A DNA stretch of 64,000 nucleotides, taken from NCBI GenBank assembly GCA_016182605.1, contig JACPGE010000119.1:1-64000 (forward strand), in the 5' to 3' direction. Made by a program: the position numbers and the translations under genes. Source of the DNA: Candidatus Hydrogenedentota bacterium (GTDB lineage: Bacteria; Hydrogenedentota; Hydrogenedentia; Hydrogenedentales; JAEUWI01). Every line of letters begins with the position of its first letter. Within the stretch, counting starts at the first letter, position 1. Shown here piece by piece: positions 6,655-42,996 of this stretch. The notes under the pieces were generated by a model. It was not told the DNA's origin. It did no database searches and was given only the letters and a program-made list of their open reading frames with translations.

Positions 6655-9420
6655 TTACTGTGCCCCCCAGTGCCGGTTGATGGCGTTGCAGAGCGTTTCA
6701 AAGCGGATGGGTTTCTGGAGGATCTCGGAGACGATGTCTTCCACGCCGGGGGCGAGGGCGCCGATGTCGGTGAAGCCGGAGCAAATGAGGATGGGGATGG
6801 TGGGATGGATCGCGCGGATCTCTTTCGCGAGGGCGTCTCCGGTGAGGTGGGGCATGGTGAGGTCGGAAATGACGATGTCGAAGCGATCGGGATCGAGGCG
6901 GAAGGCATCCAGGGCGGCCTGACTGTCGGAATAGGCCTCAACAAGGTAGCCCAGGTTTTCGAGGACGAGGCTCGATAGCTGGACGATCTGTTTTTCGTCG
7001 TCGACGAACATCACGCGTCCCGGACGATTGGAGATGAGGGCATCCTTCTGGGGCTCTGGCTCCTCGGCTTCGTTTTCGCACCGGGGGAAGTAGATGTATA
7101 TGGCCGTGCCCTCGCCCGGGGCGCTTTCGACATGAATGGCGCCGCCATGACTCTTGACGATGCCGTGAACCGTGGCGAGACCAAGGCCGGTGCCTTTTCC
7201 GGGTTCCTTGGTGGTGAAGTACGGATCGAACATGCGTTCGCGCACCTCGGGGGTGATGCCCTCGCCATTGTCCTGCACGCAGAGGCAGACGTAGGCCTGC
7301 CGGCCGAGGCCGGGCACGGCGCTGCGCAGCGTGGCGTCGGGCGTAAGTTCCGCGAGTATCACGCGAATGATCCCCGTGCCGTTGCGGATGGCCTGCGCGG
7401 CATTGGAGCAGAGGTTCATGATGGTCTGGTGCATCTGGGTGGCGTCCGTGCGGATCATGCCGCAGTTCTCGTCTATCTGTGCCTCAATGGCAATGCTGCT
7501 GGGCACGGCGCCGCGGATGAGCTTGAGGGCTTCGCGCACCAGGGGCTGGGCGCGCAGGGGCTTTTGCTCGATCTCGGACTTGCGGCTGAAGGTGAGAATC
7601 TGGCGCACCAGTTCCGCGGCGCGGTTGCCGCCCTTCTGAATTTCCTCCAGGGCGTGGGCGAGTTCCGTCTGTTCCGGGAGGGCGAGTTGGCCGGCCAGGT
7701 TGGCATAGCCGATAAGGGCGTGTAGAATGTTGTTGAAATCGTGCGCGATGCCGCCCGCGAGGGTGCCCATGGCTTCCATCTTCTGGGCTTGCCGCAGTTG
7801 GTTTTCGAGTTCAATCTGGTGCGAGATGTCGCGCTGGACAATGGCAAAGTTCGTCAGCTTGCGTTCTTGATTGTAGACCGGCGTTACTGTGACATGGGAC
7901 ACATAGGCGCTGCCATCCTTTGCGGTGCCATGGTATTCGCTTTCCCAGTTGCCGCCGTCGCGCAGGGTCTGAAAGAGGGAGTTCACCGCCTCTTCCGGGA
8001 GGGCATCGGTGCGCACGTGCCGTCCTATCAGGGATTCGCCGGCGTGCCCGGTCAAAACCTCGAAGCGCGGGTTGCAGTATTGGATGACGCCATTGATGTC
8101 GGTGATGACGATGGCGTCCGCCGCTTGCTCGACCGCGGTGGCGAGCCGTGTGCGCTCTTCTTCGGCGGCGCGGGAATCGGTAATGTCGAAGAGGACGGAG
8201 CGGGCCTCGCTGAACTGGCCCTGCGCGTCGAGCACCGGCTGGGTGGTGAGGCGCACCAGCCGCAGGCTGCGGCGCTTCGTCAGCAGTTCCAGTTCCTCGC
8301 CGTCGATGCGATCGGTGCGGCCGGACTTGAGCCGGTCGAAGATCTGTTCTGCTTTGCCGCGGCCGGTGGGCGCGTCCACATACAGGTCGATCATGGGCGT
8401 GCCGAGCAGTTCTCCGGCGGCGTACCCCGTGAGCAGCGCCGCGGCCGCATTGGCCTCGCGGATGATGCCGCTCCGGTCGGTGGCGAACTGGGCGACGGGG
8501 GCCTGCTCGAAGAGCGCGCGATAACGGCGGCGTCCCTGGCGCTCCTGGGCTTCGTGGCGGGAGATGCGGAATTGCGCCGTGCCCAGCATGAATGCGAGCA
8601 CGGCGCCGGCCGCGAGGATCCACTCGCGCCGCGCGCCGAAACCGCGATCGAAGTACAGTTGCGTGGGGGTGACATGCAGCATCCAGGGGACATCCACCAC
8701 CGTCATGGAGAGTTCCAGATCAAAGCCATTGACGAGGAGGGGCGGCGCGAGATCATTGTTGAAGACGAGTTCCCCGTTGGACTCTTCGATGCAGTAATGG
8801 AAATTGGCGCGCATGGCGGGGCTTTGCAGGCACTGCCGCGCCATGGTCTCAATGCGGAAGACGCCGTTCACGAATCCGGTGAGCACGCCCTGCGCGTTGA
8901 AAGCGGGCCAGTAGGAGGCGAAGCCCTGGCCGCCCTGCAGGAGTTCGATGGTGCCCAGGGTGCGCGCGGGCTTTCCCGTGCTTCGTGCACGGGATAACGC
9001 GTCGCGGACATTGGTCGAGGGGTGATTCAAGAGGTTGGCGCCCAAGGCGCGCTCATTGCCGGCCAGCGGGGTGACGGCGCGGATAATGCCTTCGGTGTCG
9101 ACCCAGTTGATGGCCTGGAAGCCGGCAATGCGCTTTGCCATGCCTTCGGCGGTGCTTTGAAAGAGGGCGGGGTCCGCGGCGTAGGTGGCGGCGCCTTCGC
9201 TGGCGAGGTGGGCCAGAATGCCGGTGCGGTCGTCGAGCCACAACTGAATACGGGCGGCGGTTTCTTCGGTGGTGATGCGGGTGGACTGGCGCACGCGATC
9301 CCGCACCCCCAATTCGGTAATCCACCAGAACAATACCGAGAGCAGAGCCACGGTGAAGAAGATGCTGAACGGCCGGGAAAAGAGGCCGTTCCACAGGGCG
9401 ATTAGTTTCCGCTTCTTCAT
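6655..9420 (-). CDS. CHASE-PAS-PAS hybrid sensor histidine kinase with C-terminal receiver
   Basis: A 921-residue membrane sensor. The first transmembrane helix is at residues about 18-36 ([18 protein letters not shown]). A periplasmic CHASE-like domain spans about 70-260 and a second membrane helix about 285-305. Two PAS domains follow ([37 protein letters not shown]). The phosphoacceptor helix reads [15 protein letters not shown]. The ATPase domain has an N box ([10 protein letters not shown]), a G1 box (DNGEGI), an F box (FDPYFTTK) and a G2 box (GTGLGL). The terminal receiver keeps FVDDE and the phosphoacceptor Asp in [13 protein letters not shown]. The start at 9420 gives a short basic N-terminus (MKKRK); upstream codons in the same frame overlap the stop region of the preceding gene. 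The partner response regulator is not adjacent. The ligand is unknown. Confidence 0.93.
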
Positions 9421-9529
9421 GATGGGCACGTTACCAGTAGATATCTCTCCGCAACCCGGCGAGCGTCGGCGCCTTTCTAGTGTAGCACGGGTGCGTGTAT
9501 GGGTCCATGGAGGCTCGAACGGGACCGCA

Positions 9530-11605
9530 TCAGGGAAGCGGTGGGGAAGGGACCGCCATCCGCTGGGTGTACGCATTCTGGTGGGCCACTTTGGCCGCGG
9601 CGCTCAGTTCCGGATAGGGCGTGTCGGTCACGTCGACGAAGCCAATGTTGTAGTTCTCGCCGTCGTAGTGGCGGCCCGTGATGGGTTCGTCCACATACTG
9701 GAACCAATGGCAGCCAACGATGTTGGGGTGGGCAAGGGCGCTTGCGATGTACGCGGAATACGCATCGCCGCGCGCGGATTGATCGTCCACGGGAACGAGG
9801 CCCGTGTGAAACATGCCGCGGTCCCGCGCGCCGAAATGAAACTCGCCGATGAGGATGGGCTTGTCGATGCCATCCTCCCCGAGCCAGAATTCCGCGGGCA
9901 CCTTGCGGCGGTAGACGTTGAAACTGACCACATCCGCAATCGCCGCGCACGCGCGCACCGCCGCGCCGGGCATGGTGCTGAAACGGCAGCCGAGATAGAG
10001 TTGATTCGGGGTGTGGCGGCGGAAGGCTTCGCGGTAAACGCTGAAGTAGCGTTCGGCGAAAACCTTCAGGAAGGCGTCGAGATCGGCCTCGATAGTTTCC
10101 GTGTAGGCGGGCGGTTCACCGGGCGTGTTCCAAGTATTGACCTCAATGCCCCAGGCGGCGTTGAAGGCCGCAATATCGTCGCGGTAACGCTGGCGGAGAA
10201 ATTCCGCGAGCGCGGCGCGCGCGGGCTGCGAGACCGGGCTGCGCAAGACACCCTTCTTCACGCCCTCCCACGCGAGTTCATTGTCGATGAAATAGCCGAT
10301 ACACTTGGGATTCGCGCCATACTCCGCGGCGAGGCTGCCTGCCGCGCGATCGGCCGCCGCTTCAAAGGCGGGATCGTAGACATCAACCATCTTCGCCCAA
10401 TAACCGGTCGCGCCCTCAATCGCGGGCACGCCATGGGTGCCGCCGGAAGCCACGAAAGGCAGCGGACTCGCCTGAAGCACGGCGCCATCGCTCCAGTTGG
10501 CGATGGTGTTGAAGCCCCACTGTTGCAGGCGCGCATAGGCCGTGCCGCGCCATCGCGGCCACCAGTCCCCGCCATACTTGCGCAAGAGGTTGGCCTGATA
10601 AAAGCTGAAGGTGCGGCCCGCGCCCCCGATCGGATCGGCCATGCTGTGCGCCCCGCTGACGTGGGCATAGAGCGCGGCGAAAGGCGCCTCGTCCTCCGAG
10701 GGCAGCCACTCGAACCACGGCGCGCGCCGCTCCACGAAGGTCCGATCCCCCGTGTTGACGCAGTCGACGCCGAAGGAGAAGAAGAGACGGCCTTCGGGAG
10801 TGACGAGCCACCACTTGCCGCCGTGTTTTTCCGTGCGGAACCAGCCCGTGGCCTCCAGTTTCGGGCCCGCCGTCCAGCCGCCAAAAGCGTCGCGGTCCGG
10901 GAGGGGGCCCGTGAAGGCCGCCTCTTCCGCCGTGCGCCGCTCCTGGAGTTCCGAAAGCCCATGCAATTTGCCGGGCCACTCCGCGTGCATGTATTGGCCG
11001 AAGCGATCGACGAAGGGCAACGGCACCAGCGTTTCCAGGGGCGCGCCCTCGCCGAAGAGTTCCACCCGCTCAATGAGAAAGCGCTGCTCCTCATAGGGTC
11101 CGTTGAGGAAGAACTGGAACGCGGTGATCTTCGACGGATCCACTATCGCGCCACTGGCCACCGGACCGCGCACCGGCACACCGCGCATGCCCCAAAGAAA
11201 ATCGCTGTCGCCCCGGCTGAAGTACGCGCTGACGGTTCCAGACTTGCCGGGCTCGATGGACTGCTGCACCGTGATGCAGTGATCCAGGCCGTCGGCGCCC
11301 GCATTGTCCACACGCAGATAGATCATCAGCGGCGCCCCCCCCGGATTGTGGAGCACAGCCCGGACGCCCGCATGGCTGCTCCAATCCCACGGCGTGTCCC
11401 CCGCGGAGAAGAGCACATGGGGCCAGGGCACCGTGGGCGTGCACCGCGCCTCCAGCGCGGGCGCGCCATTGAAATCGACGGTTTGCACCGTGGCGGCATC
11501 GAGTTGGGGCGCCGGCAGGGCAAGCGGAGTGACGCGCTCCTGAGCCGCGGCCATCAGGGGAAACAGCAAGGCAAGACTGGTGGTGAGGACATCCTGCATG
11601 TTCAT
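9530..11605 (-). CDS. Exported clan GH-A glycoside hydrolase, beta-agarase (GH50)-like
   Basis: A 691-residue exported enzyme predicted to hydrolyse a beta-linked polysaccharide. The signal peptide is at residues 1-22. Residues about 30-190 form a beta-sandwich, carbohydrate-binding-like region. The barrel begins with GGKWWLVTPEGRLFFSFG, a signature shared with GH50 and related agarase-like enzymes. Clan GH-A catalytic residues are visible: the acid/base Glu after Asn in YFIDNELAWE, and the nucleophile Glu in LIGEFHFGARD near the C-terminus. The substrate may be agarose-like or another marine or plant glycan; the sequence alone does not decide. It is encoded 109 bases upstream of the CHASE kinase on the same strand, without clear coupling. 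Confidence 0.82.
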   Translation of the reverse strand: MNMQDVLTTSLALLFPLMAAAQERVTPLALPAPQLDAATVQTVDFNGAPALEARCTPTVPWPHVLFSAGDTPWDWSSHAGVRAVLHNPGGAPLMIYLRVDNAGADGLDHCITVQQSIEPGKSGTVSAYFSRGDSDFLWGMRGVPVRGPVASGAIVDPSKITAFQFFLNGPYEEQRFLIERVELFGEGAPLETLVPLPFVDRFGQYMHAEWPGKLHGLSELQERRTAEEAAFTGPLPDRDAFGGWTAGPKLEATGWFRTEKHGGKWWLVTPEGRLFFSFGVDCVNTGDRTFVERRAPWFEWLPSEDEAPFAALYAHVSGAHSMADPIGGAGRTFSFYQANLLRKYGGDWWPRWRGTAYARLQQWGFNTIANWSDGAVLQASPLPFVASGGTHGVPAIEGATGYWAKMVDVYDPAFEAAADRAAGSLAAEYGANPKCIGYFIDNELAWEGVKKGVLRSPVSQPARAALAEFLRQRYRDDIAAFNAAWGIEVNTWNTPGEPPAYTETIEADLDAFLKVFAERYFSVYREAFRRHTPNQLYLGCRFSTMPGAAVRACAAIADVVSFNVYRRKVPAEFWLGEDGIDKPILIGEFHFGARDRGMFHTGLVPVDDQSARGDAYSAYIASALAHPNIVGCHWFQYVDEPITGRHYDGENYNIGFVDVTDTPYPELSAAAKVAHQNAYTQRMAVPSPPLP

Positions 11606-31206: not shown

Positions 31207-31411
31207 CGGTAGGATATCTCACTGGGTTGGGGAATGGGTCCTGCCGGACCGCATGATTGTACCTGATTTCGGGGTGCTTTGTGTCTAATCCCGATGGCAT
31301 GCATACCCGGGTTCGTAGAACACGGTGCGGCGGTGCGGTATAGTGTGGGTCGCTGCGGCGCGAATCACGGGCCTCCAGGCATGGACTGCGCCGCAAAAAG
31401 GGATAAAAAGC

Positions 31412-33484
31412 ATGTCGAACGAGAACTCGACGCCTGAGACGGGGCATCAGGCCCTGGGGAAGCGCCGCTATGTGTGGGTCGTTATGGCGCTGCTCCTGCT
31501 TACGGCGGTGGCCTGGAATACCGTGCCCCGCTGGAAACCGCCCCTCGTCATTCCGGAAGACGGGGGCGTGGCGGGCTGGCCCGCATACGGCGGGGACGCA
31601 GGCGGCAGCCGCTACTCGCCGCTCAAGCAGATCACCCCGGAGAACGTGATGCATCTTGAGGTGGCGTGGACCCACCGCACGGGCGAGGACTACACGGGCA
31701 CGGATTCGGCGTGGCAGGCGGCCTACGAGAGCACGCCGATCCTTATTGGGACCACGCTTTATCTGACCACGCCCAGCAGCCGCGTGATTGCCCTGGATGC
31801 GGAGAGCGGCGCGGAAAAGTGGGTCTTCGATCCGAAGGTGACGCCGGGCAAGACCTCGGAGTTGACCAATCGGGGCTGTTCCTCGTGGCAGGCGCCCGAC
31901 GGCGCGCACCGCATCTTTGTTGCGGCGCTGGATGCGCGGCTCATCGCGCTGGATGCGGCAACGGGCCAGAAGATTGCCGGCTTCGGGACGGACGGCGAGA
32001 TCAATTTGCGCGAAGGGGTAGCGCCCCTCGACGGCCGGGACTATGTAATGACGTCGCCCCCCGCGATCATCCACGACACGGTTGTGGTGGGCAGTGCCAT
32101 CGGTGACAACCGCAAGACCGACAGCGAGCGGGGGGTGGTGCGCGCTTACGATGCGTTGACGGGCGCCCTGAAGTGGAGCTTCGACCCGATTCCGGTTTCC
32201 CCGGCGGATCCGGCCTTCGCCGATTGGGAGCCGGGCCAGGCACAGAAGACGGGCGCGGCCAATGTGTGGTCGATCATGTCGGTGGATGCGGAACGGGATC
32301 TGTTGTTTGTGCCGACGGGGAGCGCCAGTCCGGACTATTACGGAGGCGAGCGCAAGGGCGACAACCGCTATGCAAATTGTGTGGTGGCGTTGCGCGGCAC
32401 GACGGGCGAGGTGGTCTGGCACTTCCAGGTGGTTCACCACGATCTCTGGGACTATGATGTGCCCGCGCAGCCTGTGCTGGCGACGGTAGCGAAAGCCGGC
32501 CAGGCTATACCCGTGCGCATCTCGACGCCAGACCACTGCTTGCCCGCGATGGTGGCGACAGACGGCCAGGCGATACCCGCGGTAGTGCAGGCCACGAAGA
32601 TGGGGCACGTGTTTTTTCTGCACCGTGAAACCGGCGTGCCCATTTTCCCGGTGGAAGAACGGCCTGTGCCGCAGTCGGATGTGCCTGGAGAGGCGAGTTC
32701 GCCTACGCAGCCCTTTCCCGTGGTGACGCCGCCACTGGTGCCGCAGACGCTCGGACCGGAAGAGGCCTGGGGCCTTACGTATATCGACAAGAAGTGGAAC
32801 AGCGAGAAGATCGCAACTTTGCGATCGGAGGGGATCTTCACGCCCCCGAGCCTCCAGGGTTCGGTGCATTTTCCCGGTGTGGCCGGCGGCACAAACTGGG
32901 GCAGTGTCGCGATAGACCCGGAGAACCACCTGGCAATCATGAACACGACGCGCGCCGCGTTCCAGATTGCGCTGGCGCCGCGAAGCGATTTCGAGCAGGA
33001 AGGAGCTTTGGACGGGGTGGAGCGCGGCAAGCAACTTGGCACGCCCTATGGCATGCACAGGCAGCCGTTACTTTCCGCGCTGGGTTTGCCTGTGAGCCGA
33101 CCGCCCTGGGGCACGCTTGCGGCGGTGAGCACGGAGACGGGCGAGTTGGTGTGGGAATCGGTGCTGGGAACGATACGCGATTTGGCGCCAATACCCCTGC
33201 CGATACGATGGGGCACCCCCAACATGGGCGGACCGATAGTGACGGCGGGCGGACTAATCTTTATCGCGGCCACGATGGACGATTACCTGCGCGCGTTCGA
33301 CGCAAAGAGCGGGAAAGAACTCTGGAAAGGGCGGCTGCCCGCGGGCGGTCAGGCCACCCCGATGACGTACCGCCTGAGCGAATCGGGCAAGCAGTATGTG
33401 GTGATTGTGGCCGGGGGGCACGGGCGCATGGGCACCCGGCTGGGCGATTATGTGGTGGCCTTCGCGTTGCCCGGCACCGTATGA
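31412..33484 (+). CDS. Membrane-anchored PQQ-dependent quinoprotein dehydrogenase
   Basis: A 690-residue protein. After a charged N-terminus, one membrane helix (residues about 20-38, VWVVMALLLLTAVAWNTV) anchors an eight-bladed propeller in the periplasm. Family signatures include GWPAYGGDAGGSRYSPLKQI, ALDAESGAEKWVFD, VVGSAIGD, VHHDLWDYDVPAQPVLA and MGGPIVTAGGLIFIAAT. It resembles the glucose-dehydrogenase branch and should oxidise a sugar or alcohol and pass electrons to quinone or cytochrome c. It carries no haem motif of its own. The stop overlaps the next start as ATGA, so the two are translationally coupled. No PQQ biosynthesis genes are seen here. Confidence 0.9.
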   Translation: MSNENSTPETGHQALGKRRYVWVVMALLLLTAVAWNTVPRWKPPLVIPEDGGVAGWPAYGGDAGGSRYSPLKQITPENVMHLEVAWTHRTGEDYTGTDSAWQAAYESTPILIGTTLYLTTPSSRVIALDAESGAEKWVFDPKVTPGKTSELTNRGCSSWQAPDGAHRIFVAALDARLIALDAATGQKIAGFGTDGEINLREGVAPLDGRDYVMTSPPAIIHDTVVVGSAIGDNRKTDSERGVVRAYDALTGALKWSFDPIPVSPADPAFADWEPGQAQKTGAANVWSIMSVDAERDLLFVPTGSASPDYYGGERKGDNRYANCVVALRGTTGEVVWHFQVVHHDLWDYDVPAQPVLATVAKAGQAIPVRISTPDHCLPAMVATDGQAIPAVVQATKMGHVFFLHRETGVPIFPVEERPVPQSDVPGEASSPTQPFPVVTPPLVPQTLGPEEAWGLTYIDKKWNSEKIATLRSEGIFTPPSLQGSVHFPGVAGGTNWGSVAIDPENHLAIMNTTRAAFQIALAPRSDFEQEGALDGVERGKQLGTPYGMHRQPLLSALGLPVSRPPWGTLAAVSTETGELVWESVLGTIRDLAPIPLPIRWGTPNMGGPIVTAGGLIFIAATMDDYLRAFDAKSGKELWKGRLPAGGQATPMTYRLSESGKQYVVIVAGGHGRMGTRLGDYVVAFALPGTV

Positions 33485-34554
33485 GGAAGGCAAGAACCTT
33501 GAAGACTTCGCACCTGATTTTAGTTTGCGCGGGCGCAACGCTGATTTGGGGTTCCGTGGCGGGGGTCTGCGCCGCCGAAACAGCCGAAGCCCCACCGGGC
33601 ATGGTGTGGATCGCGGGCGGCACCTTCGTGATGGGGAGCGATGCGGAAGACGCCTGGCCCGCGGAGCATCCCGCGCATCCGGTGGAGGTGGATGGATTCT
33701 GGATTGATGCGACGGAGGTGACGAACGCGGAGTTCGAGGCCTTTGTGACGGCGACGGGATACGTGAGTACCGCCGAGAAGGCGCCAGACGTGACGGAAAT
33801 CATGGAGCAATTGCCCCCAGGCACGCCACCCCCGCCCGCGGAATCGCTCGTGCCGGGGTCGCTGGTGTTCACGGGAGCGCCGGGCCCGGTGGACCTGCGG
33901 AACTTTGCACAATGGTGGACGTGGACGCCCGGTGCGGATTGGCGGCGCCCGACGGGTCCGGGCAGCTCGCTGGAAGGGCTGATGGATCATCCCGTGGTGC
34001 ATGTTTCGTGGTTTGATGCGGTGGCCTATGCCACGTGGGCGGGCAAGCGGCTGCCGACCGAGGCAGAATGGGAGTGTGCTGCGCGGGGCGGGCTGGTGCA
34101 GAAGCCCTTTGTGTGGGGGGACGATCCGCCGAGCGACGACCAGATTTATGCGAATTTGTGGCAGGGCGTTTTCCCCCATGAAAATACGGAGCGGGACGGA
34201 TACCGCTTCACCGCGCCCGTGAAGACCTATCTTGCCAATGGCTTTGGACTGTACGGGATGGCCGGGAACGTTTGGGAGTGGTGCGGAGACTGGTTTCGTC
34301 CGGACACGCACCAGAGCGCAGCGACGGCGGGGACGGTGAAGAACCCCCAGGGGCCGGCGAGGGGGTTTAATCCGCAGAACCCCTATCAGCAGGAGCGCGT
34401 GATCAAAGGGGGATCGTTTCTGTGCCACGTGGCCTACTGCGCGTCTTACCGGCCCAGCGCGCGGCAGGGGAACACCCCCGATTCCAGCACCTCCCACATG
34501 GGCTTTCGCTGTGTGATGACAGCGGCCATGCGGGAGGCGAAAACCAAACCGTGA
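33481..34554 (+). CDS. Exported formylglycine-generating enzyme (FGE, SUMF1 family) with intact active site
   Basis: A 357-residue protein with a signal peptide (residues about 8-31) and an FGE-sulfatase domain. Motifs are GMVWIAGGTFVMGSD, FWIDATEVTNAEF, HVSWFDAVAYATWAGKRLPT with EAEWECAARGG, and GMAGNVWEWCGDWF. Near the end, CHVAYCASYRPSARQGNTPD contains both active-site Cys at the spacing of human FGE, followed by MGFRC. Known FGEs use these Cys to bind copper and oxidise a sulfatase Cys to formylglycine. No Cys-type sulfatase is in the window. The start shares ATGA with the PQQ dehydrogenase stop. Export of a bacterial FGE is notable; most prokaryotic ones act in the cytoplasm. Confidence 0.9.
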   Translation: MRKARTLKTSHLILVCAGATLIWGSVAGVCAAETAEAPPGMVWIAGGTFVMGSDAEDAWPAEHPAHPVEVDGFWIDATEVTNAEFEAFVTATGYVSTAEKAPDVTEIMEQLPPGTPPPPAESLVPGSLVFTGAPGPVDLRNFAQWWTWTPGADWRRPTGPGSSLEGLMDHPVVHVSWFDAVAYATWAGKRLPTEAEWECAARGGLVQKPFVWGDDPPSDDQIYANLWQGVFPHENTERDGYRFTAPVKTYLANGFGLYGMAGNVWEWCGDWFRPDTHQSAATAGTVKNPQGPARGFNPQNPYQQERVIKGGSFLCHVAYCASYRPSARQGNTPDSSTSHMGFRCVMTAAMREAKTKP

Positions 34555-34574: not shown

Positions 34575-36017
34575 TTATTGGGGCACTTCAAGCTGGTTGA
34601 GAATTTCCGGCGCTTCTTCTTCCCAGGCCAGCACGGTGTGACACACGTTGCAGTCCTGGCTGATGACCTTGCCGTCGGATGAGGCGTGCGAGTCGTCGTG
34701 GCAGCGGAAACATCCGATGGAGTTGGTGTGGCCGATGTTGTCGGGATAGGTGTCCCACTTGACCTTCATTTCGGGGAAGACGGACTGGCGGTAGAGTCTT
34801 TCGAGGGTAACGAGAGACGCATCCAGCTTGTCTTTCATCGTTTCGAGGACTTCCGGATTGTTCTCTGCGTAGTAGGCCCGAATCTTCTCATCGACCTGGG
34901 TCCACGGGGCGAATTCGTTTCCAGCGGCGGTGAACTCTTCCACGGCCTTCATGCGGATGAAGGGGATCTCCTTGCTGATGCTGCCGTCCGTGATGGCGTA
35001 ATCAATGAGGGTCGCGGGTGGCTTGTAGATGTGGGTGGGGCGGTTGTGGCAGTCGATGCAGTCCATCCGGCGGAACTCACCGGCGGCGATGTCTGCGCCG
35101 GTCAGGGTGGTGTCGGACATGCGGTACTCGGTGAGTGCGCCGCCCTTTTCCTGCACGCGCACCACGTCGATTTTCTGGCGTTTCTCGTCGGAGGCGAGAT
35201 AGTAGGTGTCTTTTTCTTCACTGATGTGCCAACTGTGAATGCCCTTGCTGGCGCTGCGTCCGCCGCCCAGGTGCATAAGCAGCACGGTGTAGCTGGGCGT
35301 GTTCGATTCGTCGTCGAGGTAATGCTTGTGTACGCGGAGGGAATCGCCGCTGAATTTTTTGGGCCAGTGGCATTCTTCGCAGGTTTCTTCCGAGGGGCGC
35401 AGGTTGTGCACGGGCGTTTCGATGGGGGTTGAATAGCTTTTCCGTGCGACGGCGATGACCTGGCGCAGTCCGGAGAGTTTGGCCTTTACGAACCACGACG
35501 CGCCCGGGCCAATGTGGCAATCCACGCAGGCCACGTGGGAGTGCGGGGAGTTGAGATAGGCCGTGTATTCCGGTTCCATGACGGTATGGCAGACCTGGCC
35601 GCAGAAGGTGGGGGATTCGGAATAGACCACGCCCTGGTAACTGATGAGAGAGACGGTGAAGAGATTGACCAGGGTCAGGATGCCGACCACGGTGAACATC
35701 TGGCGGGTCTTTGCGCGGTTGAAATCGAGCACGGGATAGAAGCCGGCGGCCAGCTCGGGATCGGTGTCGCCGTGGATGCGTCGCTGACGGCGGCGCCACA
35801 GGGCGCCGGCGGGCACGAGCACCAGACCGATGACAAAGAAGGTGGGCAGAATCAGAAATACCAGGATGCCCAGGTACGGCGAATTAACATGGCCCAAGTA
35901 GCTGAGCAGCATGAAGAAGACGATGAAGAGGGCGGCGATTGTAACCAGAGTCGCGCCGAACAAGGAAATGGCGTTGCTGGTAAGCACCCCGAAGAATAGT
36001 TGAACCCCTTTGCGCAT
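34575..36017 (-). CDS. NapC/NirT-like membrane multihaem cytochrome c, probable quinol oxidase of the conduit
   Basis: A 480-residue inner-membrane protein. It has three hydrophobic segments (about residues 18-40, 48-72, 108-128), then a periplasmic cytochrome part. Five CXXCH motifs (CVDCH, CEECH, CIDCH, CFRCH, CNVCH) and one CXXXCH (FCGQVCHTVMEPEY) bind up to six haems. The block from that first motif through SPHSHVACVDCHIGPGASWF is the NapC/NirT signature. Such proteins take electrons from quinol. AAGGAG precedes the ATG. It is the last gene of the minus-strand cytochrome run, after an intercistronic hairpin, and converges on the FGE gene with 20 bases between stops. Confidence 0.9.
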   Translation of the reverse strand: MRKGVQLFFGVLTSNAISLFGATLVTIAALFIVFFMLLSYLGHVNSPYLGILVFLILPTFFVIGLVLVPAGALWRRRQRRIHGDTDPELAAGFYPVLDFNRAKTRQMFTVVGILTLVNLFTVSLISYQGVVYSESPTFCGQVCHTVMEPEYTAYLNSPHSHVACVDCHIGPGASWFVKAKLSGLRQVIAVARKSYSTPIETPVHNLRPSEETCEECHWPKKFSGDSLRVHKHYLDDESNTPSYTVLLMHLGGGRSASKGIHSWHISEEKDTYYLASDEKRQKIDVVRVQEKGGALTEYRMSDTTLTGADIAAGEFRRMDCIDCHNRPTHIYKPPATLIDYAITDGSISKEIPFIRMKAVEEFTAAGNEFAPWTQVDEKIRAYYAENNPEVLETMKDKLDASLVTLERLYRQSVFPEMKVKWDTYPDNIGHTNSIGCFRCHDDSHASSDGKVISQDCNVCHTVLAWEEEAPEILNQLEVPQ

Positions 36018-36043: not shown

Positions 36044-36079
36044 CGGCGAATCCGGCGCCTTGGGGGGCCGGATTCGCCG
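36044..36079. other. Perfect 13-base-pair intercistronic hairpin
   Basis: CGGCGAATCCGGC (36044-36056) and its exact complement GCCGGATTCGCCG (36067-36079) lie between the tetrahaem and NapC-like genes. No T run follows on either strand, so it is more likely an mRNA processing or stability element, or partial attenuator, than a full terminator. Confidence 0.7.
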
Positions 36080-36097: not shown

Positions 36098-36715
36098 TTA
36101 CTTGGCGGCCCCGTCTTTCTTTTTCAGGGGATTCGGGTGCGCGATCTTTTCCGCGGCCTGTTTGAAGTTGAAGCCGGACTTGGCGCCGTCATCGGCGGTG
36201 TAGCGTTCAGGATTCCAGGTGGGGCTCTCTTCGTTGTGGCAGGTGAGGCAGACCTTTTCTTCCGGCAATTCGCGGCTGGCCTGGAGCTGTTCCAGGGTGA
36301 TCTTCTTCATCTTGTATTCTTTGGCGGAGGCGACGTGGGCGTTGCTGGCGCCGTGGCAGCTTTCGCACTGAACACCCAACGTGGCGGTGATCTTCGCCGG
36401 GGCGGCTTTGGCCGCGGCGTCATACCCGGTGACGTGGCACTTGAGGCATTCGGGAGCTTCGGAGGGCGGCCCCGCGAGGCCCTTTTCCTTCGCCAGAGCG
36501 ATTGATGCGTCGGACTTCAGGGTTTCGAGGGCTTTGGAGTGTTTGTCCGCATTCCACTTGTTCCACTGTTCGCCTTCGGTGGACTTGTTGTGACATACCT
36601 TACACGTTTTTTCCCCCTCGTACGTTGCGTCCTGCGCCACGGCGGCCGACGCGGTCAGCACCGAGAGCAGGAATGCCAGGCACAACGTGGGGGCGGCTTT
36701 CCTGAAAATGTTCAT
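36098..36715 (-). CDS. Periplasmic tetrahaem cytochrome c (c554-like)
   Basis: A 205-residue exported protein with a signal peptide ending in ASAAVAQ (about residue 28). It has four CXXCH motifs (CKVCH, CLKCH, CESCH, CLTCH). The order and the segment GVQCESCHGASNAH resemble the cytochrome c554 domain family. In context it is the likely soluble shuttle between the inner-membrane cytochrome and the outer-membrane complex. AAGGAG lies 6 bases before the ATG. It is 37 bases downstream of the 14-haem gene. Confidence 0.9.
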   Translation of the reverse strand: MNIFRKAAPTLCLAFLLSVLTASAAVAQDATYEGEKTCKVCHNKSTEGEQWNKWNADKHSKALETLKSDASIALAKEKGLAGPPSEAPECLKCHVTGYDAAAKAAPAKITATLGVQCESCHGASNAHVASAKEYKMKKITLEQLQASRELPEEKVCLTCHNEESPTWNPERYTADDGAKSGFNFKQAAEKIAHPNPLKKKDGAAK

Positions 36716-36752: not shown

Positions 36753-37802
36753 CTACTGATGACAGACGACACATTGCGTAGTACTGTTCATAAGGTGGGG
36801 CGCCTGATTCGGCAACCCGCCCGGGTGACAACGGGAACAATCCGGGGGATAGATCCCCAGGGTGTGGGGGGAGGAGAGGGCGAAACGGTGGTCGATGTTT
36901 TCGTGGCAGACCGTGCAGCCCGCATCCTCTGCCGGATAGTGGCATTCCACGCAGTGGGCGTTGCGCGAGCCGCTCCAGCCGGCGCGGTGGTGTGAGCGGG
37001 GCTCCGTATTCTGGTGGCATTGCAGGCACGCGTCTTCCTCGTGGCACACGCTGCAATTGCTGCGGTTCCAGGACGCTTCGAGGCCGTGTGTGGCGCGGCG
37101 CCAGTTGATGGTGTGATTCCGCGGCGGCGTGACCTCGTGGCACTCGGAGCAGAAGTTTTCATTTTCGTGGCAGATCGCGCAGTATTTTTGATCGACGAGG
37201 GCTTCCCGGCCGTGGATCTTTTCCCAGACCTCGGGGGCGTCGTGGGCGATGCGGCGTGTGCCGTTGAATTTGGGCCGGGTCTCGCGGGACATTTCCTTGT
37301 GGCACACGTTGCAGGCGTTCAGTTCGGGGCGGGTCTGGCCGTGGCAGTCCATGCACCAGGGCTTCATGGCCGTATAGGGAACGGGCTTGGAAGCGTTATC
37401 TCCGTGGCAGGCGGTGCATTCCAGGCCTTTGCTCGTGTGGGCGTCGTGGGTGAATTTCAGTTCTTCCACAATCCTGGTCTGCCATGCGTCGATGCCGAGG
37501 TCCTCCCGGGTGTGGCAGAAGCCGCAGGCCTGGGGATCGGGATTGTCCATGTCGATGTCATGGCAGGTGCTGCACATGTCGTGGGTGGGAAAGAGGGCGG
37601 CGGGGTCGGCGGTGTTGTGGCAGTCGGCGCAGGCGATGCCTTCGGCGACGTGCAATTCATGGTTCACCCGCACGCCACGGTCCTGCTTCTTCGCGGCGGC
37701 CGCGGCGCCTGGCGTCATGCCTGCGCAGGCGCTCAGAAAGAGGCTCAACGCGGCTGCGCCGGCCGCATACATCACTTGTCGTTGTGTGGCGTGGTATGTC
37801 AT
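36753..37802 (-). CDS. 14-haem cytochrome c lipoprotein
   Basis: A 349-residue lipoprotein (lipobox LSAC, Cys about residue 26). It has fourteen CXXCH motifs spread evenly from residue about 58 to the last residues (CADCH, CSTCH, CGFCH, CTACH, CMDCH, CNVCH, CAICH, CSECH, CSVCH, CLQCH, CVECH, CTVCH, CSRCH, CVVCH). That is one haem per 24 residues, dense enough for a continuous wire. It starts 8 bases after the porin stop. By analogy with Geobacter porin-cytochrome complexes it would plug one face of the barrel. No active-site-type distinction can be read from the sequence. Confidence 0.93.
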   Translation of the reverse strand: MTYHATQRQVMYAAGAAALSLFLSACAGMTPGAAAAAKKQDRGVRVNHELHVAEGIACADCHNTADPAALFPTHDMCSTCHDIDMDNPDPQACGFCHTREDLGIDAWQTRIVEELKFTHDAHTSKGLECTACHGDNASKPVPYTAMKPWCMDCHGQTRPELNACNVCHKEMSRETRPKFNGTRRIAHDAPEVWEKIHGREALVDQKYCAICHENENFCSECHEVTPPRNHTINWRRATHGLEASWNRSNCSVCHEEDACLQCHQNTEPRSHHRAGWSGSRNAHCVECHYPAEDAGCTVCHENIDHRFALSSPHTLGIYPPDCSRCHPGGLPNQAPHLMNSTTQCVVCHQ

Positions 37803-37810
37803 GGGTACTT

Positions 37811-39439
37811 TCAGAACCGGATGTTGTAGGAGGCTTCGAGCCGCCAGTACGGGGAATCCGGCCCATCATCCTCTTCCACGGTTGCTTTCAGGGCCACGTC
37901 TTGGGCGCCGGTCACGGCGAACTGATACTTGGCGAAGAACACATACACGTTTTCGCGGGTGGTGACCTCTCGCACGTCGAAAAGCCGCACCAGCGGCTCA
38001 TAGGTTACGAAGAAGGCGGGCGTCAGTGCGGTGAGGAGCTGGTTCGCCAGCAGCAATTCGGGCTGGTAGATCTCGATGCGGTCTTTGTAGCGCTCGAAAT
38101 CCACACCGACAGTCAGTTTCGATTTTTCCCAGCGCCGGGCGATCTCCCCGTTGAATGCGAGGCTGCTTTCGCCGTCTGAAACATCCCAGTATTCGACGCC
38201 GATGGAGCCGTCCAGGTTCTTGGCCAATTCGGTGGCATGAAGGTAGGCGCCGAGGCGTTCGAAGTCGCGGTTGGCGGTCTGATTGGCGCCTTTTTCCGCG
38301 TCGTGAATCTGGCCTTCCAGACTGAGGCCGAAGCGATTGGAGAGCGGAAAATCCACCACGGCGCGCAAATCGTTGTAGGCCTCTTCGGGGCCGAGAATGC
38401 GGAAGAATCCGGTTACGTCGTTGGCGCGATCTTCGAGGAGGTAGAGGCGGCTGCGGTAGGTGAGGTCGTAGGAAATTTCCTTCTTGCGGAAGACCCCGCT
38501 CAAGGAGAAGAGCATTTCGTCGCTGCGGCCGTCGTACCAGGTGTAGCGGCCGAAGAAGCGGTGATCGTCGCCCAGGTACTGATAGAGGGAGAAATCCAGG
38601 CGGCGGCTGTCGATTTCTTCGCGCACGGTCCGCGGGGAGTCGAGCCGGAGGAAGCGCGCGTAGAAGGACGGCTCGACAGATTCGCTGCTGCGCCGATCGT
38701 CCTCGCCGTAGTAATAATCCAGGGCCACCTTGGTTTTCGGGAAGAGCCAGACGGACGCGCCAGCGCCCGCGGCAAGGTCCTCGTGGGAGTCGTCATAGAT
38801 GGAGGCGCGGGCTCCCGCGAAGGCGTACCATTCCCACGCGTTGAAATGTTGTTTGAAATACAGGCCGTCAATGCGGCCATAGGCGGGGCTGTCCACAATG
38901 CGCTGACGTCCCACCCGCAGCACGCCCTCGCCGGCGAGGTCATCCCATTCGGCGTAGAGCTGAAGCAGGCGTGCCTGTACGGCCGCGCCATAGCTGTTTG
39001 CCAATCCGCCGAGATCGCTGTCGCCCGGCTCGTGGCCGTCCACATCTTCCGTCAGCCACAGCGAAGTCCGGATCCGGAAGTTCAGGTGCTGGGGCGGCTG
39101 GATGTCGAGGCGGAGAATTTGATCGAGCACCGTGTCGGTTTCGCCGTTTTCCGCGGCAAAGTCCAGGCCGAGCCGCAAGGAGCCTGATAGCCATGGGGCG
39201 GCGGGTGCGTCTTGCGCGGGTGTTTCGGCCGGGTTCTCCGTGGCGGGATCGGCAGCGGTGTCCGCGGGCGCCTCGGGGACGGGCGGTGCATCCGCGGCAG
39301 GCGCCGCCTCTTGCGCCACGGTTTCTTCCTGGGCGTGCACCGGCTGGGGCGCAACAAACATGGAGAGCGCCCCGAGGGCAAGCAGCAGGCTTCCCTGCCA
39401 GAGAATCCGCCTAATTGACGATTTGTCCGATTGACTCAT
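37811..39439 (-). CDS. Outer-membrane beta-barrel of the porin-cytochrome conduit
   Basis: A 542-residue protein. The signal peptide ends at QPVHAQ (about residue 37). A 45-residue Ala/Pro/Glu linker follows, then about 440 residues of alternating amphipathic strands (for example LRLGLDFAAE, LNFRIRTSLWLTED, LYAEWDDL, ISYDLTYRSRLYLLED). The last residues (ASYNIRF) end in Phe, the barrel-assembly signal. There are no haem motifs. It lies between an 8-9-haem and a 14-haem lipoprotein gene and overlaps the upstream gene by 29 bases. It probably plays the role of MtrB or Geobacter OmbB, a sheath for cytochromes across the outer membrane. Sequence identity to those was not testable here. Confidence 0.85.
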   Translation of the reverse strand: MSQSDKSSIRRILWQGSLLLALGALSMFVAPQPVHAQEETVAQEAAPAADAPPVPEAPADTAADPATENPAETPAQDAPAAPWLSGSLRLGLDFAAENGETDTVLDQILRLDIQPPQHLNFRIRTSLWLTEDVDGHEPGDSDLGGLANSYGAAVQARLLQLYAEWDDLAGEGVLRVGRQRIVDSPAYGRIDGLYFKQHFNAWEWYAFAGARASIYDDSHEDLAAGAGASVWLFPKTKVALDYYYGEDDRRSSESVEPSFYARFLRLDSPRTVREEIDSRRLDFSLYQYLGDDHRFFGRYTWYDGRSDEMLFSLSGVFRKKEISYDLTYRSRLYLLEDRANDVTGFFRILGPEEAYNDLRAVVDFPLSNRFGLSLEGQIHDAEKGANQTANRDFERLGAYLHATELAKNLDGSIGVEYWDVSDGESSLAFNGEIARRWEKSKLTVGVDFERYKDRIEIYQPELLLANQLLTALTPAFFVTYEPLVRLFDVREVTTRENVYVFFAKYQFAVTGAQDVALKATVEEDDGPDSPYWRLEASYNIRF

Positions 39440-40376
39440 AGAGCACCTGAAGCTGTTCATTGGTTGCCATGTCGGCGGGATCGTGGAAGCCACCGGCGGG
39501 ATTGATGCCATCGTGACATCCCGTCGTACCGGAGCAAGAGTTGGCCGGTGGCAGCAGGGCGCCAGCAGCGATAGCGTCGTTGGTTGCGGCAGGGGCAATG
39601 GTGGCCAGGCTGTGATCGAAGCCAGCGCCGAAGTTGCCGTTGCGATCCACCGCCGGCATGTGGCAGCCCGTGCAGCGGCTCGCGCCGGTGCCTGCGGGAT
39701 CCACCGGGTGGAAGGCGCCGGTGTGGAAATCGATGGCCGCTTCGGTGTCGAAGCCCAGCACGGCGCCGCCATGGCACTGCTGACAGACGGCGTTGGTCTC
39801 CACGGGGGCGCGCAGGGCGCCCGCCGCGTGAAGGTTGTGGCAGGAGCCGCAATTGGCGGCATCCGAGGCGACGTGCCCGCTCAACTGAAATTCGGCTTCG
39901 GCTTCGGTGTGGCATTCGCTGCACAAGGCGGTGAAGGTGGCGGTGGTGGCGAATCCGTTTTCATCGCGATCGGCATTGAGTCCGCCGGGGGTGTGCACAT
40001 CGTGGCAGACATGACAGGCCGCCGCTTTTTCGAAGGCGTGCGCGGTATTCGCGAAGCCTTCGGCCTGCGATTCGTGGCACTCCGCGCAAAGGCTTACGGC
40101 GTCATCGAAAGTTTGGAGGGCGGGGTTGGCGATCAGGAGGCCGCCGCGGCCGCCATTGCGCACGTGGAGCGCTCCCGGACCGTGACAGGTTTCACACGAG
40201 ATGCCGGCGTGTTTTCCTTCGAGGTGCAGGCGCACATCGGTCGCACTGCGCCCGTCGTGACAAGCCAGGCAGGTATTGGTCCCCACATAACCCGTTTTTG
40301 TGCATCCACTAAGCAGGAGCGCGATGCACACTCCGTAACGGAAACCCCATCCGCTATACAGGCGATTCCACCACAT
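39411..40376 (-). CDS. 8-9-haem cytochrome c lipoprotein
   Basis: A 321-residue lipoprotein (lipobox LLSGC, Cys about residue 24). It has eight canonical CXXCH motifs (CLACH, CETCH, CAECH, CHVCH, CSECH, CGSCH, CQQCH, CTGCH) and one possible ninth with wider spacing (CSGTTGCH) near the end. HxxH-like His residues (for example HLEGKHAG) may give the second axial ligands. The start at 40376 gives a short basic lead to the hydrophobic core; ATG at 40451 has AAGG upstream but would make an unusually long n-region. It is the first gene of the minus-strand conduit operon, overlapping the porin start by 29 bases. Confidence 0.88.
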   Translation of the reverse strand: MWWNRLYSGWGFRYGVCIALLLSGCTKTGYVGTNTCLACHDGRSATDVRLHLEGKHAGISCETCHGPGALHVRNGGRGGLLIANPALQTFDDAVSLCAECHESQAEGFANTAHAFEKAAACHVCHDVHTPGGLNADRDENGFATTATFTALCSECHTEAEAEFQLSGHVASDAANCGSCHNLHAAGALRAPVETNAVCQQCHGGAVLGFDTEAAIDFHTGAFHPVDPAGTGASRCTGCHMPAVDRNGNFGAGFDHSLATIAPAATNDAIAAGALLPPANSCSGTTGCHDGINPAGGFHDPADMATNEQLQVLYESIGQIVN

Positions 40377-40613
40377 ACGTTTCTCTATCGCCGTTGAACG
40401 CGCGCGTACCACCATGAAATGCGCGCACTCAGTCCGGTATTGAATCCGCATCTTCGTGCCTTGTGAGAGGGCATTGGCGACGCGGATTTTGCTGTTCCCG
40501 AATGGGACTATACGCCCGTTTTTGGGGGAAGTCAACTTTGGGCTTGTATAGCCGAATGAACGCATGCTTAGCCGTTTAATCAAATAGACCCCGAATCTAA
40601 ATCTAGAAAAAGC

Positions 40614-40920: not shown

Positions 40921-42996
40921 ATGAATACACACAGATTCAGTTGCCGCAATAGCTTTACAGTATTGATTGCGGTAGCTGTCATGGGACTCCTGTTTTCAGG
41001 GTGCCCATCGATCATCAACAACATACTGCAAGGGGGACCGGCATCACTGGCCAACGGCTTGGTCATCGAGGTGATCTCGGTCAGCATCCCGGAAGATCTC
41101 CGGCCTGTAGTCATTTTTACGATCAAAGACAGCAAGAACAAGGACGTGGCGCTGAGTGAACTCACGGACGCGCGGTTTATCCTGGGATATCTGGACGAGC
41201 CCGAGACCGGGAGCACGGCGCGTTACATCAGCTACATCACGCGGATAGAGAATCCGGATGGCCAGCCAAACACCGGTGACGAAGCGGTGCAGTCGAATTA
41301 CGACAGCGCTCGGCTGGGCGGTGTGACTGACAACGGCGACGGCACCTATACCTACAAGTTTGCGGCCGCCGTGCCGGCAAATTATGACGCCGGTGCGACG
41401 CACCAGATAGCCGGTCAGTTTACGCGGCTTTACCCAGTGGACGGCCAAGTGTATCCCTATAACATGGCCGAGACTTTCCTGCCGGACGGCGGAGATGTCA
41501 CGGCGACGCGGGAAATCGTGTCCACGGAAACCTGCAATACGTGCCATACGCGTCTGGAATTCCATGGCGGAAACCGCCGCGAAGTCCAGTTGTGCATCAT
41601 GTGCCATTCGACCCAGTCGTCAGACGGGCAGTCGGGGAATTCAGTCGACTTTGCCGAGATGATCCACAAGATCCATATGGGCGAAGAACTGCCGAGTGTT
41701 CAGGACGGCACACCGTATCAGATCATTGGATTTGGGAATTCGGTGAACGATTATTCGACGGTTGTGTTCTCGCAAGACATCCGGAACTGCGAAGTCTGCC
41801 ATACGAACGCGCCGCAGGCGGACGTGTTCCTGACGAATCCCACGAAGGCCGGCTGCGCCTCGTGCCACGACCGCACCTGGTTCGGGAATCCAGACCTGGC
41901 GCCGGAAGGCTGGGAAGTCCACGTGGCGGGTGAACAGGTAAATGACAGCCTGTGCTCGCAGTGCCACAAGCCGACCGGCCCGGCGCCCTCGCCGATCCTG
42001 GAAGCGCACCGTCTGGTCTCCGAATTGCCGGAGAATCCGGGGCTCGCATTGAACGTGCTCGAAGTCGTAACGACGCCCCCGACGCCTGAAAAGCAGGCCG
42101 AAGGCACGCAAATCACGATTACGTTCGCGGCCCTGTACGGGGACGGTTCCCCGGTGCTGGCGCTGAATGCATTGAACAGCATAACGGCGCGCATAGGTTA
42201 CCCGGCCGCCGAATATGAAACCACGTTTGGTGAAAGCCTGCTGACGCCGGCGGGCACCTTGGTGAACAACAACGACGGCACCTATGTGTACACCTTTGCG
42301 GGTACCGTGCCTTCCGATTCGACCGACACGTTTGCGGTGGGGATGGAAGGGCGTATTGCGTTCACGCACGATGAAACGACGTTCCGCCAGGGCACCTCGA
42401 CCAACGGGTTGATGTATTTCACGCTCAACGAAGAGGAGCCGGAGCCGCGCCGGGAAGTGGTGAGCGATGCCAAGTGCAACGTCTGCCACAACGACCTGCA
42501 TCTGCATGGTGCAAACCGCGTGGGCGTGCAATACTGCGTGGTCTGCCACAACCCAAGCATGACGGATGTATCCCGCCGGCCTGGGGATCAGTTGCCGCCC
42601 GAAACGGTCAATTTCAAGGACATGATTCACCGGATACACTCCGGCGCCGAACTTGAAAATGGCTATCTGGTTTACGGCTTTGGCAATACGCTGCACGATT
42701 ACAGCAACGTCGGCTTCCCGGGCAAGCGGGAAAGCTGCGCAGTCTGCCACGAAGAGGGTACCTATGAACTTCCGGTGACGGAAGACGCTCTGTCCACCTT
42801 CGTCGTGAACGGAGAAGAAGTTGTGCGCGATGTGCTGCCCGAACGCGCCGCGTGCACCACCTGCCACGACAGCCTGCTGGCCAATGTTCATGCGATTGTC
42901 ATGAGCGATATCGGCGGCGGTGTGGAAACGTGCGCTGTCTGCCACGGCCCGGGCAAGGACTTCGATGTGGAGAAGGTCCACGCGCTCGCTCCGTGA
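40921..42996 (+). CDS. OmcA/MtrC-family decahaem outer-surface cytochrome c lipoprotein
   Basis: A 691-residue lipoprotein (lipobox LFSGC, Cys about residue 28). Ten CXXCH motifs fall in two groups of five: CNTCH, CIMCH, CEVCH, CASCH, CSQCH at residues about 200-350, and CNVCH, CVVCH, CAVCH, CTTCH, CAVCH at about 520-680. Each pentahaem group is preceded by a beta-rich domain ending in a similar phrase (NDGTYTYKFAAAVPA; NDGTYVYTFAGTVPS), the four-domain plan of MtrC and OmcA. Those proteins pass electrons to minerals or electrodes at the cell surface. AAAGGGA precedes the ATG. A strong terminator follows. It is divergent from the conduit operon and very probably its terminal partner. Confidence 0.95.
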   Translation: MNTHRFSCRNSFTVLIAVAVMGLLFSGCPSIINNILQGGPASLANGLVIEVISVSIPEDLRPVVIFTIKDSKNKDVALSELTDARFILGYLDEPETGSTARYISYITRIENPDGQPNTGDEAVQSNYDSARLGGVTDNGDGTYTYKFAAAVPANYDAGATHQIAGQFTRLYPVDGQVYPYNMAETFLPDGGDVTATREIVSTETCNTCHTRLEFHGGNRREVQLCIMCHSTQSSDGQSGNSVDFAEMIHKIHMGEELPSVQDGTPYQIIGFGNSVNDYSTVVFSQDIRNCEVCHTNAPQADVFLTNPTKAGCASCHDRTWFGNPDLAPEGWEVHVAGEQVNDSLCSQCHKPTGPAPSPILEAHRLVSELPENPGLALNVLEVVTTPPTPEKQAEGTQITITFAALYGDGSPVLALNALNSITARIGYPAAEYETTFGESLLTPAGTLVNNNDGTYVYTFAGTVPSDSTDTFAVGMEGRIAFTHDETTFRQGTSTNGLMYFTLNEEEPEPRREVVSDAKCNVCHNDLHLHGANRVGVQYCVVCHNPSMTDVSRRPGDQLPPETVNFKDMIHRIHSGAELENGYLVYGFGNTLHDYSNVGFPGKRESCAVCHEEGTYELPVTEDALSTFVVNGEEVVRDVLPERAACTTCHDSLLANVHAIVMSDIGGGVETCAVCHGPGKDFDVEKVHALAP

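Follow-up and report, generated by a model that had tools for sequence, protein, structure and literature searches.

The analysis covered a window of 64,000 nucleotides from a Candidatus Hydrogenedentota genome assembly of 6.76 Mb, in which a porin gene lies between two genes for multihaem lipoprotein cytochromes. These three ORFs (hereafter, the trio) are all on the minus strand and read in the order MtrA-like cytochrome (40376-39411), porin (39439-37811) and 14-haem cytochrome (37802-36753). Downstream, the operon continues with genes for a c554-like protein and a NapC/NrfH-type protein, while an OmcA/MtrC-family gene, divergent from the trio, adjoins it upstream. The features of the locus are as follows:

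34575..36017, minus strand: inner-membrane NapC/NrfH-type multihaem quinol dehydrogenase (PF03264 and the NrfH model)
36098..36715, minus strand: periplasmic tetrahaem cytochrome c554-like protein (PF13435, E=4e-18)
36753..37802, minus strand: 14-haem c7-like lipoprotein cytochrome (exactly 14 CXXCH in 349 aa)
37725..37727, minus strand: lipobox Cys codon (aa 26) of the 14-haem protein, not kept in all relatives
37811..39439, minus strand: porin, predicted 22-strand outer-membrane barrel (AlphaFold2 model; no MtrB match)
39411..40376, minus strand: MtrA/DmsE-related lipoprotein cytochrome (8 CXXCH and 1 CX5CH, probably 9 haems)
39513..39536, minus strand: CX5CH motif CSGTTGCH (aa 281), probable unusual covalent haem site, in 24/24 aligned relatives
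40302..40304, minus strand: lipobox Cys codon (aa 25) of the MtrA-like protein, 11 residues ahead of the first haem Cys
40507..40535, minus strand: sigma-70-like promoter candidate TTGACT-17-TATAGT upstream of the operon (weak, about 0.6 expected by chance)
40921..42996, plus strand: OmcA/MtrC-family decahaem lipoprotein (TIGR03507, 470 bits vs. a cut-off of 209)

The gene layout given in the preliminary description was confirmed in the window: the first cytochrome gene and the porin gene overlap by 29 bases (39411-39439), 8 bases (37803-37810) separate the porin gene from the 14-haem gene, and lipoboxes are present in both cytochromes (...LLSGC at aa 25 of the 321-aa MtrA-like protein, and ...FLSAC at aa 26 of the 14-haem protein). 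From this coupling, a three-part outer-membrane complex of fixed stoichiometry had been argued. However, the overlap offers no argument for stoichiometry, since it is not shared by the relatives, whose junctions vary between -4 and +151 bases at the first position and between -17 and +126 bases (mostly about 15-26) at the second, with start codons picked by a simple score and single cases possibly off. The complex itself draws its support from phylum-wide synteny and co-occurrence instead. In particular, the order MtrA-like, porin and 14-haem was kept in the loci read out across the taxonomic order, save at contig ends and in genome G007; the arrangement is therefore not due to chance, and such conserved synteny points to a common function of the trio. 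As for regulatory elements, a riboswitch was looked for in the divergent intergenic stretch, with no Rfam match, and a strong 16-nt inverted repeat at 36044-36079, between the c554-like and NapC-type genes, is a possible processing or attenuation hairpin. Moreover, a PQQ-type dehydrogenase gene and then a sulfatase-modifying-factor-like gene (31325-33484 and 32794-34554) lie beside the electron transfer cluster.

Profile comparison matched the MtrA-like protein to MtrA of the solved complex 6R2Q, as well as to a real MtrA from a Photobacterium mtrCAB cluster (prob 98.7). Its score against TIGR03508, the model of the MtrA/DmsE decahaem family, was 65.7 bits, under the cut-off of 192, and the GSU2203 family cut-off was likewise failed. 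On these sequence grounds, the protein is best described as a shortened MtrA/DmsE relative. A search of plasmids with it returned only a genuine mtrCAB cluster, which was taken as a control, and no porin was found among the plasmid relatives. Within the family, 6 or 8 CXXCH motifs are accompanied by one CX5CH, defining 7- and 9-haem classes, and both the lipid Cys and the motif C[SAG]GxxGCH were invariant in all 24 relatives aligned. In the long class, the 9 motif His (8 CXXCH and 1 CX5CH) are balanced by exactly 9 other invariant His, and the 19 invariant Cys comprise the lipid Cys and 9 pairs; the short class shows the same balance, with exactly 7 other invariant His for its 7 motif His, and with 7 pairs and the lipid Cys making up its 15 invariant Cys. 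Because the CX5CH is invariant and matched by these exact counts, it probably binds haem, and the figure of 8-9 haems previously proposed for the window protein is best taken as 9. The same counts disfavour a chance or structural Cys pair. Furthermore, a CXXCH of the solved cytochrome 6QVM falls at the position of the CX5CH in the profile alignment. At least three changes between the 7- and 9-haem classes were obtained by counting labels on a tree of the porin and 14-haem proteins, and one genome with 99% completeness (G009) harboured two trio copies (L025 and L046), one of each class. In G007, one contig end (L108:1-1016) encodes the N-terminus of an MtrA-like protein together with 13 haems, and another (L061:2-1288) a 21-haem stretch followed by the porin; since the two ends have 119 identical bases in common, they suggest one MtrA-like protein of about 32 haems, although a repeat could mislead.

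Two alignments of the 14-haem family showed no variation in any of the 14 motifs, nor in 14 further His. The N-terminal half of the 14-haem protein has similarity to ActA of Alternative Complex III and to c7 proteins, and its single-chain structure model was of unusably low confidence (pLDDT 52). The lipobox was present in most loci, which is what would be expected if the trio worked as in Geobacter, with the MtrA-like protein filling the barrel and the 14-haem lipoprotein acting as a surface cytochrome like OmcB; likewise, a 12-haem cytochrome lies outside in Pcc systems (PMC4245776). This arrangement is nevertheless considered unlikely, given that the lipobox Cys is missing at its usual place in L021, L022 and L025, where the protein may be soluble, that its N-terminal half resembles ActA, and that the surface role is already open to an OmcA/MtrC protein. 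The preliminary description had asked which lipoprotein points outwards; both are lipoproteins by their lipoboxes, but the two-way choice omits the OmcA/MtrC-family protein encoded at 40921-42996, and the answer may be neither, because the latter is the likeliest outward-facing cytochrome and surface terminus. In E. coli, the Lol rule holds that an Asp at +2 after the lipid Cys governs sorting. The residues after the lipid Cys, whose inspection had been proposed, include no Asp at +2 in either of the two window lipoproteins, and the E. coli rule would accordingly sort the pair to the outer membrane. To our knowledge, no surface-export signal has been defined for Hydrogenedentota.

The porin is 542 aa long, lacks haem motifs, ends in Phe and has a signal-peptide-like start. 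The AlphaFold2 model comprised 22 strands, with pLDDT mostly >90 and no plug domain, preceded by a disordered Pro/Ala-rich N-terminal tail (residues 29-79). No curated family was found over its cut-off for the window porin, including Alginate_exp, which is common in these genomes and yet gave no match. An assignment as MtrB was rejected, as hhalign against a real MtrB gave a prob of 2% and MtrB_PioB (PF11854) was found in 0/68 Hydrogenedentota genomes, while that MtrB, used as a control, reached 511 bits against that Pfam model. Only 2 of 25 porin relatives showed a weak MtrB_PioB similarity (best E 0.0018). By profile, the barrel is thus unrelated to MtrB and unmatched to any known family. 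The ideal backbone diameter of a 22-strand barrel was computed as about 40 Å, while MtrA has dimensions of about 80 x 30 x 35 Å, with a cross-section of about 30 x 35 Å and its N-terminal haem A1 about 20 Å inside the periplasm (PMC7198977); given these dimensions and the periplasmic position of that haem, a shortened MtrA without the periplasmic tail would roughly fit such a modelled barrel. The nearest solved folds among the 50 listed were AlgE and pilus ushers, with TM values ≤0.43 by query length. These folds, and the fact that multihaem motifs by themselves are generic, are compatible with a solute porin beside periplasmic cytochromes of another respiration (e.g. N-oxide or nitrite reduction), without trans-membrane electron transfer. 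Such an explanation is very unlikely, as the porin and the 14-haem protein co-occur without exception, both are associated with OmcA/MtrC, and no recognised terminal reductase gene was found in the operon.

The distribution of the set was examined in 68 Hydrogenedentota genomes, which are MAGs and can be incomplete. The porin was found in 29 of them, the 14-haem gene in all of these and, as a fragment at the end of a contig, in G052, and the MtrA-like protein in 28. A total of 27 genomes had OmcA/MtrC over the cut-off, 24 of which were porin-positive, so that OmcA/MtrC appeared in 24/29 porin-positive vs. 3/39 porin-negative genomes (Fisher p = 1.6e-10, the species not being independent). The exceptions included G009, in which no OmcA/MtrC reached the cut-off despite two porin loci. 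With MtrB_PioB missing from all 68 genomes, the porin of the trio is the available barrel partner. Moreover, the NapC/NrfH-type gene and OmcA adjoin the trio in many loci. In the named records, relatives belonged almost exclusively to Candidatus Hydrogenedentota, as found by one degenerate-pattern scan. A contig labelled Nitrospiraceae (L062, JAACEL010000106.1) also carried the porin and 14-haem genes; it apparently belongs to G054, which is placed in the window's order, and its label is probably wrong. G036 carries two further multihaem genes, with 11 and 19 CXXCH, that immediately precede the trio (L035:5564-10706), and L032 also has an 11-haem gene (7625-9592).

Overall, the trio and its neighbours probably constitute a trans-outer-membrane porin-cytochrome conduit for extracellular electron transfer. 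The NapC/NrfH-type protein, which has five CXXCH and one CX3CH (CGQVCH, its first haem motif), is the likely electron entry. Electrons would pass from menaquinol to this cytochrome in the inner membrane, then to the c554-like tetrahaem protein, and from there to the 14-haem lipoprotein, a putative relay held at the periplasmic face. From the relay, the electrons would enter the MtrA-like protein, which would lie with its 9 haems in the lumen of the 22-strand barrel and be anchored close to haem 1 by the lipid on its N-terminus. This protein would pass them on to the OmcA/MtrC-family decahaem lipoprotein on the surface and hence to an outside acceptor. The genes of the operon (MtrA-like, porin, 14-haem, c554 and NapC-type) follow each other as their products would along this path, starting from the outside. 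Both a NapC/NrfH-type gene and OmcA/MtrC are characteristic of electron export and speak against an inward flow, a quite improbable case in which external donors, for example Fe(II), would supply the set with electrons. Inward operation is known from the Mto/Pio-type porin-cytochrome conduits (PMC10654088).

The exact topology of the preferred conduit, with the MtrA-like protein in the barrel, the 14-haem relay at the periplasmic face and OmcA/MtrC on the surface, is put forward tentatively, with somewhat less than an even chance of being correct in full. The MtrA-like protein is favoured as the barrel filler because it is homologous to MtrA. Against this, the 14-haem protein could also be the plug, given that its haem number is invariant and its lipidation dispensable. 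The same conduit might hence be wired differently, so that the 14-haem protein traverses the barrel and a wire of variable length, the MtrA-like lipoprotein, lies on one face of it, either surface or periplasmic, a possibility that we hold to be rather less probable. What favours the 14-haem protein as filler is that it is invariant, with 14 motifs in every complete copy and all ligands conserved, that the loss of its lipobox in three loci would be affordable for a lumen or periplasmic protein, and that the exposed lipoprotein is the replaceable part of Geobacter conduits (PMC6148476). The MtrA-like partner, in turn, keeps its lipid Cys but not its haem number, which is 7 or 9 and, in G007, about 32. 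Furthermore, the porin distances tracked those of the 14-haem protein more closely than those of the MtrA-like protein (partial r 0.63 vs. 0.38, 25 loci), although this result reversed in a 10-locus subset controlled for the NapC-type gene, and the MtrA-like protein remains the homologue of a known barrel-filling cytochrome. A more far-reaching version, which we judge unlikely, would be an independently evolved wire: the 22-strand barrel, forming a family of its own, would enclose the invariant 14-haem protein, which would be coupled to a lipid-anchored MtrA relative of stepwise length (7, 9 and about 32 haems) with covalent haem on the invariant CX5CH.

The trio is in any case real and conserved, and it probably represents a new variant of porin-cytochrome conduit. 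An uncultured phylum thus gains a concrete candidate machine for extracellular respiration, found via gene order rather than MtrB homology, and the set points to MtrA- and OmcA-type cytochromes being able to function alongside a barrel that profile comparison does not relate to MtrB. Moreover, it provides a natural collection for asking which conduit parts are fixed and which can lengthen, and the invariant CX5CH with its matching ligand count is a directly testable candidate for an unusual haem attachment site.

No description of a conduit in Hydrogenedentota was found in the open-access literature, and an MtrCAB survey names other groups only (PMC8805035). Among the known systems compared by description only, Geobacter ExtABCD likewise combines a porin with lipoprotein multihaem cytochromes (5 haems in ExtC and 12 in ExtD; PMC6148476), while its haem counts and order differ. 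The Verrucomicrobia porin-multihaem clusters, in the part of their description consulted, resemble the trio in pairing an 8-haem cytochrome with a barrel predicted to have at least 20 strands and were likewise proposed as a new type, with no 14-haem partner described in that part (PMC5615132). The Geobacter Pcc (OmbB-OmaB-OmcB) and related Pcc clusters, again compared by description only, have small porins of 18-22 predicted strands, periplasmic cytochromes of 5-14 haems and reported atypical haem motifs (PMC4245776), all of which are in line with the trio, in which two multihaem cytochrome genes likewise adjoin a porin gene. Unlike Pcc, the locus encodes an MtrA-like member and an OmcA/MtrC-type protein. 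By this analogy, the trio may be a distant Pcc. With MtrCAB of Shewanella (6R2Q), the locus has in common an MtrA-family cytochrome, a large outer-membrane barrel and an OmcA/MtrC-family surface cytochrome encoded together, the last of them recognised by TIGR03507 well over its cut-off. However, the barrel has 22 strands instead of 26 and is unmatched to MtrB, either by hhalign or by PF11854; the MtrA relative carries a lipid anchor and the CX5CH and is shorter, with 7 or 9 haems in place of 10 and a score under the TIGR03508 cut-off; an extra 14-haem lipoprotein is encoded; and the OmcA/MtrC gene is divergent. The conduit would work like MtrCAB and Pcc, but it is not a member of MtrCAB, because both the MtrB barrel and the decahaem tests fail.
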